Assembly (NCBI GenBank): GCA_934436435.1
Contig: CAKSAN010000014.1
Coordinates: 62,001 to 126,000 of the forward strand
Origin: an uncultured Acetatifactor sp.
Lineage (GTDB): Bacteria > Bacillota > Clostridia > Lachnospirales > Lachnospiraceae
Direction of reading: 5' to 3'
DNA length: 64,000 nt
The position numbers and the translations under genes were made by a program. The number at the start of each line of letters is the position of its first letter. The stretch's first letter is position 1. The notes beneath the pieces were generated by a model. That model made no database searches, was not told the DNA's origin, and worked only from the letters and a program-made list of their open reading frames with translations. Below are positions 19,967-55,054 of the stretch, one piece after another.

Positions 19967-20446
19967 TTATATTCCCAACTCCCGGTGAAAATAAGTAAGC
20001 GGCGAATAAGCGTATCTTCTCTTGAACTCTCGTGGATCCATTTTCTTGCTGCCGGACACATGCTGTACATATTCCTCTACAAATGTTATTGCCTCTTTTT
20101 TTATCCTTTCCAGATGTTTTATTGTCTCATTAAATTCATCTTTATCAATAAGAGCATCTTTCGTATCAACATATTCACTTTTGGTTATGATAACTATTTT
20201 GGTGTAATCAAGACCCGATTTATGTTTCTGGGATCTCTGAGTTTTTCTGAATCGAAAAGAATATGGATGTGTTATTTCACTTCGATATGGTATGCATATG
20301 TAATAGTCATAATGGGATTGAAAAAGTAAGCAATTGTAGGCTCGCTGTTTCTTTTTCAATATTTCGTGATATGGCGGATCCGGGTGATCCCTGTAGAATT
20401 GTGGTGTCAATTTCAAGATCTGATAATCATTTTCCGGTAGATTCAT
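19967..20446 (-). CDS. Type III toxin, ToxN/CptN-like endoribonuclease
   Basis: 159 aa. The segment PYHEILKKKQRAYNCLL, followed by a YICIPYRSEI stretch and KSGLDYTKIVII, is the pattern I associate with type III toxins (ToxN/AbiQ, CptN and TenpN groups), endoribonucleases held inactive by a small repeat RNA. The surroundings are decisive: upstream on the same strand come a sigma-A promoter, two identical 52-nt repeats able to form stem-loops, an intrinsic terminator, and then AGGAGGG just before this ATG. That is the standard promoter-repeat RNA-terminator-toxin order. CptN-like is the likeliest subgroup, from memory. Known loci act in phage defence or plasmid maintenance. Confidence 0.85.
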   Translation of the reverse strand: MNLPENDYQILKLTPQFYRDHPDPPYHEILKKKQRAYNCLLFQSHYDYYICIPYRSEITHPYSFRFRKTQRSQKHKSGLDYTKIVIITKSEYVDTKDALIDKDEFNETIKHLERIKKEAITFVEEYVQHVSGSKKMDPREFKRRYAYSPLTYFHRELGI

Positions 20447-20460
20447 TTTCCCTCCTATGT

Positions 20461-20494
20461 AAAATAAAGAAACGAGAGGCCATTCAGCCTCTCG
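20461..20494 (-). terminator. Terminator between antitoxin RNA and toxin
   Basis: Minus-strand stem CGAGAGGC / GCCTCTCG (20473-20480 and 20487-20494) with a 6-nt loop, followed by TTTCTTTATTTT. In type III loci leaky termination here sets the excess of antitoxin RNA over toxin mRNA. Confidence 0.85.
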
Positions 20495-20503
20495 CCAAAT
20501 CCT

Positions 20504-20611
20504 TCATCATTCGGTCAATTTTTATTTTACCGTCCTGTCAGAACCGTCACAGGACTCATCGCTCGGTCAATTTTTATTTTACCGTCCTGTCAGAACCGTC
20601 ACAGGACTCAT
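20504..20611 (-). ncRNA. Type III antitoxin RNA repeats (ToxI/CptI-like)
   Basis: Two tandem copies of a 52-nt unit (20504-20555 and 20556-20607) differ at two positions (AT versus GC), followed by the first 4 nt of a third. In transcript sense each unit carries a stem with arms GTCCTGT and ACAGGAC around a 10-nt loop, plus CGGT/ACCG arms flanking an A/T-rich stretch that could pair as a second stem or pseudoknot. The RNA would be cut into units by the toxin and bind it. Two repeats is a low copy number within the range of type III systems. Confidence 0.85.
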
Positions 20612-20645
20612 TAAATAGATGAAGAAGAACTCTGTTCTCAATGCT

Positions 20646-20674
20646 AGTATATACATTTTCTGTGGAAAAAGCAA
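20646..20674 (-). promoter_or_regulatory. Promoter of the type III toxin-antitoxin locus
   Basis: Minus-strand TTGCTT (20669-20674), exactly 17 nt, TATACT (20646-20651), placing the RNA start near 20639, about 30 nt before the first repeat. Confidence 0.75.
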
Positions 20675-21717: not shown

Positions 21718-21736
21718 TTTTTCTTCCTTTTCATTA

Positions 21737-21960
21737 TCTTGTGGGTATCTATGACACTTTTTTCGCCATATACCCTGCTCGCCATCTCACCTTGGGTATA
21801 TACACGCTTTTCCTCGCTCTATACCCTTTTCGTCATCTTCCTTTGGGTATATACACGCTTTTTCCCGCTCCATACCCTTTTCATCATTTTCCCTTGGGTA
21901 TATACACGCCTTTTCCTCGCTCTATACCCTTTTCATCATCTCACTCATGGTATCAACAGG
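21737..21960. repeat. Tandem array of imperfect 51-bp hairpin repeats
   Basis: Four copies plus a decayed fifth, anchored by GGGTAT(A) at 21743, 21794, 21845, 21896 and about 21949 (spacing 51, 51, 51, then 53). Each unit contains GGGTATA and TATACCC arms about 19 nt apart, so either strand can form a hairpin per unit. Units are not open in any single frame on the minus strand; on the plus strand they are open but the peptide is low complexity, with no start site. The array lies between a terminator-like hairpin and the GH26 start, within or just upstream of the GH26 leader. Confidence 0.85.
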
Positions 21961-21998
21961 ATTCTTCGTCCTTCCGTACCATTTCTCACAAAAGTAAG

Positions 21999-53385: not shown

Positions 53386-53453
53386 AGAAAAAGCTCCTTA
53401 CCGTTTTTGGTAAGAAGCTTTCCCTGAAATGTCTTATTTTATTCGTACAACAC

Positions 53454-53569
53454 GAATTGCTCCGCAGCTATGCTGCTCTCGCAATTCTACCTGCATTCGG
53501 ATTCCGCTGATTTGCTTCTGCAAATCGCTTCTTCCTTCCGCAGTGCAAGCTCAAAAACGCTTCGCGTTT
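53454..53569. repeat. Cluster of short palindromes in intergenic DNA
   Basis: Within the 281-nt gap upstream of the helical protein gene: GAATTGC/GCAATTC (53454-53460, 53481-53487) enclosing GCAGC-TAT-GCTGC, GATTTGC-TTCT-GCAAATC (53509-53526) and AAACGC-TTC-GCGTTT (53555-53569). A REP/BIME-like mosaic of small hairpins; no coding frame or T-run terminator stands out in this gap. Confidence 0.5.
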
Positions 53570-53666
53570 CTTCGCTGTCGGGCATTCGCCCTATCAAAAA
53601 TAAATCATCAAAAATCATGCCTGCAAGCAGTCAGATTTTTGCCGATTCATTTTTGGCACTGCTCAT

Positions 53667-54982: not shown

Positions 54983-55054
54983 TGCATCCGACAGGAATCG
55001 AACCTGCATTAAAGGCGTCGGAGGCCTCCGTTCTATCCATTAGACTACGGATGC
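54983..55054 (-). tRNA. tRNA-Arg (anticodon CCG)
   Basis: Cloverleaf read by eye: acceptor GCATCCG / CGGATGC, discriminator A, D arm with TGGAT, anticodon stem GAGGC / GCCTT with loop CTCCGAC (anticodon CCG, reading CGG), T arm GCAGG-TTCGATT-CCTGT. CCA is not encoded. The D stem has one C-A mismatch. Confidence 0.93.

Follow-up and report, generated by a model that had tools for sequence, protein, structure and literature searches.

Background and scope

In type III toxin–antitoxin systems, the toxin cuts the repeat RNA that serves as its antitoxin, retains the fragments, and is inhibited by them within a closed ring (PMC5086642; PMC4627078; PMC8860590); the last of these papers terms the ring closure of these complexes not completely clear. 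ToxIN and CptIN are the only type III systems for which structures are named in the available part of one account (PMC5086642), and TenpIN of Photorhabdus luminescens is described in another as aborting phages (PMC5377504). The locus considered here lies in 64,000 nucleotides (nt) of an uncultured Acetatifactor sp. (contig CAKSAN010000014.1, positions 62,001 to 126,000); this whole stretch is called the window. A sequence-only reading had proposed a complete type III toxin–antitoxin locus beside pilus genes, and the proposal holds: the toxin matches a TenpIN model, and T2SSE and T2SSF (PilB/PilC-like) genes adjoin the locus, which is a real TenpIN system of known kind. The weight of the finding appears to lie in a covariation-backed RNA architecture and in solitary units of the same RNA in phage records, the low repeat number being ordinary.

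The locus resembles TenpIN of P. luminescens in its toxin family and in having antitoxin repeats, terminator, and toxin all on one strand. The distant plasmid and phage relatives with which the window was compared differ from it in having units of about 48–53 nt of other sequence. ToxIN/AbiQ (PDB 2xd0, 4ato, and 4glk) has units of 34–36 nt in 2.8–5.5 copies (PMC5086642), whereas the units here are 51–53 nt long and present in two copies. CptIN of Eubacterium rectale (PDB 4rmo) is not the family matched by the window toxin sequence; the ring assembly proposed below, with two toxins and two RNAs, would resemble CptIN, and a closing helix is not mentioned in the available portions of the CptIN literature.

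Family and predicted fold of the toxin

The 159-amino-acid toxin passes NCBIfam TenpIN model NF047358 with 167.2 bits (cut-off 90), and on this sequence match it is TenpN, of the TenpIN family. The sequence-only reading had called it CptN-like; that identity is not supported, the TenpIN model winning instead. No CptN or ToxN model or PDB chain matched at E values up to 1, the presence of CptN and ToxN models in the libraries being unchecked. Pfam returned two rows, both below cut-off, and PADLOC a single weak one (REase_II, 17 bits); the PDB sequence search gave nothing significant, and no solved TenpN structure was found that way. When a predicted TenpN model was compared with 363 chains, the four type III toxins ranked first, which indicates a ToxN-like fold. 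TenpN is modelled with the ToxN/MazF fold and expected to be an endoribonuclease.

The repeat unit as an H-type pseudoknot

Each unit of the antitoxin RNA, TenpI, is a predicted H-type pseudoknot with compensatory changes. It comprises a stem of seven pairs (P1) and a pseudoknot helix (PK), in which the loop CGGT pairs with a downstream ACCG. Across 70 aligned distinct units, P1 and PK were paired in 99.7% of cells, against 84.9% in shuffles, and changes on both sides occurred somewhere in 7 of the 11 pairs. The units were picked by a pattern that needs at least 6 of 7 P1 pairs and so favours P1, while the 3' strand of PK was unused in picking; with looser picking (threshold 4), array units all had 7/7, and one chance match with 4 appeared in L057. 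P1 takes at least seven forms, for instance GTCCTGT/ACAGGAC, GACGAGT/ACTCGTC, and GTTGAGT/ACTCAAC. In PK, unit 2 of L023 has U-A in place of C-G, and the L026 group (4 rows) has U-A in place of G-C in its unit 1. PK is mismatched just twice, in L043 and in L057; both are one-unit arrays resembling fusions of unit 1 and unit 2, and their toxin frames lack the conserved end. An alternative hairpin, CGGT (30–33) with ACCG, was rejected, as compensatory change was never seen and it was unpaired in 9/280 cells.

In 17/56 two-unit loci, unit 1 and unit 2 carry different P1 strands, a difference that would prevent the units from pairing with one another; the window has identical strands in both, and its plain minimum-energy fold mixes the two. 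The array-plus-terminator RNA of the window folds better than its shuffles (z -4.5; 0/200).

The closing helix P0

The pseudoknot pairing, the closing helix, and a leader hairpin are features beyond those already noticed in the window. The closing helix, P0, pairs the leader just 5' of unit 1 (window sequence CTTCATC) with the sequence directly after unit 2 (GATGAAG). The mean energy of the leader/terminal duplex was -10.85 kcal/mol and that of the leader/internal-junction duplex -7.08 over 52 distinct two-unit loci, 50 of which preferred the terminal partner. When terminals were permuted among loci, the observed mean was reached in 0/5000 permutations, and 13 loci whose leader lacks TTCATC gave the same outcome as a set (0/20000). 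The best duplex had at least six pairs in 51/52 loci. The test was alignment-free; a MAFFT precursor alignment had put rare leaders out of register. Among 14 distant plasmid and phage loci, P0 had at least six consecutive pairs in nine, the mean over the 14 was unreached in 2000 shuffles, and in L132 and L137 the sequence of P0 is changed and its pairing kept. The unit pseudoknot and P0 are thus shown computationally, through covariation.

Relatives and unit number

A scan of 84,980 species genomes yielded 61 loci, of which 51 carry the title Lachnospiraceae or that of a genus assigned here to the family. In a family sample around one relative, 27/397 genomes had a match (14 above cut-off), and in a phylum sample 8/398 (2 above cut-off), the centre genome being counted in both. 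After removal of 11 duplicates, 65 loci including the window had at least one unit found by the pattern: two in 56, one in 8 (among them L001, cut by a contig end), and three in 1. A toxin was termed intact when at least 90% of the close-relative profile lay in one frame, and 65 loci with usable upstream DNA were scored in this way. The 49 loci with intact toxins comprise 47 two-unit, one three-unit, and one one-unit locus, and the other 16 comprise 9 two-unit and 6 one-unit loci and 1 without a unit (Fisher p 1.1e-4), some frame breaks possibly being assembly errors and the loci being related to each other. One-unit locus L055 has an open 168-amino-acid frame that passes the TenpIN model, with its last third unlike relatives; p becomes 1.3e-3 with L055 as intact and 4.1e-4 with it left out. 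Among distant relatives, 19 plasmid and phage loci were collected, 16 plasmid loci being chosen from the 50 matches listed of 74; L106, L123, L124, L128, and L138 were left out, and two units were found in all 14 scored (plasmids and one Vibrio phage). By pattern count, two units is the rule in this group of loci, and the low repeat number that the sequence-only reading had valued as a useful variant is the norm.

Several other relatives were encountered. TenpN homologues L077, L079, and L080, above cut-off, showed no tandem array by the repeat detector used, and L081 has a 47-nt array of 1.9 copies. Weaker matches L082–L092 were left out of follow-up; L093, a weak match to the TenpN profile (E 4e-4), has a 45-nt repeat of 2.2 copies upstream, the length of that of CptI. 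The Parablautia muri genome holds two TenpIN loci, the intact two-unit L026 and L055 with its one unit and odd toxin end. Plasmids of Jeotgalibaca porci, Enterococcus faecalis, and Staphylococcus arlettae (L106, L123, and L124, respectively) carry TenpN relatives in which toxin and two-unit array seem to lie on different strands, in divergent orientation; on the array strand, units of GTGGC-loop-GCCAC-GTTAAA type and promoters TTGACA/TTGACT-17-TAAGAT/TAATAT were seen by eye, and L106 and L123 have terminators 3' of the array. If true, these divergent arrays would violate the co-operonic rule for type III systems.

Solitary units in phage records

Scans of 2.9 million viral contigs with the unit patterns found 30 viral records, 26 with the Lachnospiraceae unit type (including the record of L067) and 4 with that of the distant relatives. 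TenpN was found in four (L147, L156, L165, and L067) and not in the remaining 26, many of which are fragments, so that absence is not proven; a TenpN search of three of these records gave a match nowhere. Among the 26, the fetched stretch held a single unit in 23 and two or more in 3 (L155, L162, and L163). Complete predicted TenpI units thus occur in phage DNA where TenpN was not found.

All but one of the 23 solitary units sit among tRNA genes and on the tRNA strand. In 16 of these 22, of the types of L139, L140, and L151, a tRNA ends 18–30 nt ahead of P1; L145 and L160 have the tRNA on the downstream side, 85 nt from the P1 start; L153, cut on one side by a contig end, has one downstream; L164, L173, and L174 are flanked by tRNAs on both sides, one per pair being of undetermined type. 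The 23rd record, L146, lacks both a tRNA and a PK partner. The 19 solitary Lachnospiraceae-type units all have a paired P1, of whose seven pairs the search pattern left four free. PK is formed with ACCG in 17/19 (read by eye in L145 and L160, where an ACTG lying earlier had halted the script) and is weakened, with ACCA, in L148 and L150. A second unit type of other sequence was found likewise in three further records, of which the near-identical L173 and L174 have a compensated PK (GGAG/CTCC against GGAA/TTCC in relatives). The 22 records amount to about six sequence types with many near-copies and therefore to few independent events. Around the phage units, P0 was not significant against shuffles (481/2000) and mixed against windows of the same locus (p 0.03–0.32). 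A terminase large subunit gene lies near the unit of L140, and a degraded unit is present in MT835481, the record of a named phage.

As a phage-borne mimic of an antitoxin, the solitary TenpI units resemble the pseudo-ToxI of phage PhiTE. The wild-type PhiTE has 1.5 repeats, from which a full pseudoknot is not readily formed, and expansion was needed (PMC3475682), whereas the phage TenpI units are complete, solitary, and placed among tRNA genes. They also resemble RNA anti-CRISPRs, solitary viral copies of a host defence RNA repeat, which mimic CRISPR repeats and not toxin–antitoxin RNA; the word tRNA occurs 0 times in the main text of that paper as available (PMC10651486).

Two other observations concern these records. 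In the 85-kb viral record L162, two units, a promoter, a terminator, and a start site were seen by eye, with a short open reading frame (ORF) behind; TenpN was not found in the record, leaving an antitoxin-only locus. Rfam 'skipping-rope' RNAs occur near solitary units in phage tRNA arrays, at L145:773-842 and L151:11103-11175.

Proposed mechanism and alternative explanations

The locus is very probably a TenpIN type III toxin–antitoxin system with two pseudoknots closed by P0 and a toxin that would be made by read-through. One promoter would give a short RNA with a 5' hairpin, two H-type pseudoknots enclosed by P0, and an intrinsic terminator, and occasional read-through of the terminator would yield TenpN. 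TenpN would cut the precursor at the GATGA junctions, which are conserved and likely sites (Table 1), and the pseudoknots would hold it inactive; loss of the RNA, for instance in phage infection, would free TenpN and might bring about abortive infection, which the sequence-only reading had put forward alongside stabilisation as the role of the module. Because the 3' end of unit 2 would be placed by P0 alongside the 5' end of unit 1, one precursor may form a ring of two toxins and two RNAs. A wider reading, offered tentatively and falling a little short of an even chance, joins this to the phage records: phages with two unrelated-looking TenpI unit types would keep a complete solitary pseudoknot in tRNA operons as an RNA antitoxin that is produced and trimmed together with the tRNAs and disarms the TenpN of the host, while the host RNA would be a P0-closed two-knot ring giving a single complex of two toxins and two RNAs, hence the copy number of two.

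Several observations weigh against the main reading of the locus. The leader prefers the internal junction in 2/52 loci; L058, one of the 13 with a deviating leader and itself with a broken toxin frame, is without P0; and five of the 14 distant loci (L107, L125, L126, L130, and L131) either lack P0 or have it interrupted. Owing to the shared ancestry of the loci, the permutation counts overstate independence. The toxin model is the best of five (predicted local distance difference test 81, the other four 50–59), and a plain Foldseek search found nothing at E values up to 1e-3, with weak similarities to MazF as its top rows. The promoter of the window is itself weak. Three TenpI repeats are drawn for S. 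aureus in a published legend (PMC4885055), so that two units are not universal in TenpIN.

The ring has a serious rival in end protection, which stands close to an even chance: P0 would merely stabilise the antitoxin RNA, the pairing of its 5' and 3' ends shielding it from exonucleases, unrelated to a ring or to copy number. As this predicts, a 5' hairpin lies directly upstream of P0, the leader exceeding the average stability of its shuffled versions in 52/54 distinct two-unit loci, and P0 is kept even in one-unit loci such as L031; by itself, however, end protection leaves the two-unit count of the 47/49 intact loci unexplained. That the inverted repeat around the array acts as DNA, as an operator or the ends of a mobile cassette, is very improbable. 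The site has carried different modules, a close relative having a HicB-type gene there, but the arms covary between loci, fall inside the predicted transcript, and include G-U pairs (20/452 P0 pairs), which speak for pairing as RNA. Equally improbable is a decaying relic with an inactive toxin and left-over repeats: the toxin frame is broken in 15 or 16 of 65 scored loci, yet that of the window covers the whole profile, and every pair of P1 and PK is retained in both window units.

The solitary phage units are read as putative decoy antitoxins on positional and structural evidence. They might instead be processing sites or relics in tRNA operons, which is plausible but on balance doubtful. The two weakened PK helices, the near-copies that reduce the records to about six sequence types, and the indistinct P0 would suit that explanation; the complete pairing of P1, largely outside what the pattern demands, the PK retained in nearly all units, and the compensated PK of the second unit type argue against it.

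Genomic site and elements of the window

The promoter, two 52-nt repeats, terminator, AGGAGGG, and 159-amino-acid ORF that had been described on one strand are all present, the promoter being weak. They follow one another on the minus strand from 20674 to 19967 (Table 1). Tandem Repeats Finder reports a 52-nt repeat (2.1 copies, 96% match, 20504-20611), the window contains two matches to the unit pattern against a mean of 0.00 in shuffles, and GTCCTGT/ACAGGAC stems are present in both units. The promoter matches the consensus at 8/12 positions by hand count; the pair was not among the matches listed by a promoter scan of the window, and under scripted scoring a second window pair also reaches 8, so that the promoter is weak taken alone. 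Promoter-like sequences score at least 9 in 40/54 distinct two-unit loci (mean 9.43; shuffles 7.90), at the corresponding place in 11 of the 12 rows listed, and these scores of relatives support the predicted window promoter. A terminator-like hairpin lies 3' of the array in 46/56 two-unit loci. An Rfam search gave no type III antitoxin family among its matches, and a plasmid search for DNA resembling that of the window gave no match.

Table 1. Predicted elements of the TenpIN locus in window coordinates.
Feature	Position	Strand	Basis or detail
Promoter-like sequence TTGCTT-17-TATACT	20646..20674	-	TTGCTT 20674-20669, 17-nt spacer, TATACT 20651-20646
Leader hairpin GAGAAC-AGA-GTTCTT, probable 5' end	20625..20639	-	Sequence and relatives
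P0 closing helix, 5' strand CTTCATC	20618..20624	-	Leader/terminal duplex test
Junction AATGA ahead of unit 1	20608..20612	-	GATGA at the same place in 27/56 two-unit loci
TenpI unit 1	20561..20607	-	P1 20607-20601 with 20590-20584; PK 20598-20595 with 20567-20564
Internal junction GATGA, candidate toxin cleavage site	20556..20560	-	GATGA in 46/56 two-unit loci
TenpI unit 2	20509..20555	-	P1 20555-20549 with 20538-20532; PK 20546-20543 with 20515-20512
P0 closing helix, 3' strand GATGAAG	20502..20508	-	Leader/terminal duplex test
Intrinsic terminator separating antitoxin and toxin	20471..20496	-	11 pairs
Ribosome-binding site AGGAGGG	20450..20456	-	Sequence
tenpN toxin ORF, 159 amino acids	19967..20446	-	ORF list

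The tenpN gene is flanked by a pilB-like gene and a GH26 gene. In a relative with a 95% identical PilB, TenpIN adjoins in the same order, the contig breaking off on the other side. In another, with a 96% identical PilB (L109:3157-3941, genome G406), a HicB-type antitoxin gene (PF15919, 41.7 bits) stands between the equivalent neighbours, adjoined by an interrupted hicA-like frame named by eye. A single site has thus held two toxin–antitoxin kinds, TenpIN and HicB-type, one having been exchanged for the other.

Elsewhere in the window, a 51-nt tandem repeat of 3.4 copies (21769-21941) lies with the GH26 gene on one side and a flotillin-like gene on the other, and the counterpart of 21733-21988 is absent from L109. 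A Clostridiales-1 RNA (RF01699, 57 bits) occupies 53444-53580 and a tRNA 54983-55054.

Significance

A closing-helix architecture for TenpI and solitary phage units of it were not found in searches of open full-text papers. The covariation provides a concrete fold for the TenpI RNA together with its closing helix. The solitary phage units support the relevance of such systems to phages only indirectly. If they neutralise TenpN, they would be a natural, ready-made RNA counter-defence against a toxin–antitoxin system, carried in tRNA arrays; if this is true, they would show that TenpIN systems encounter phages in nature.
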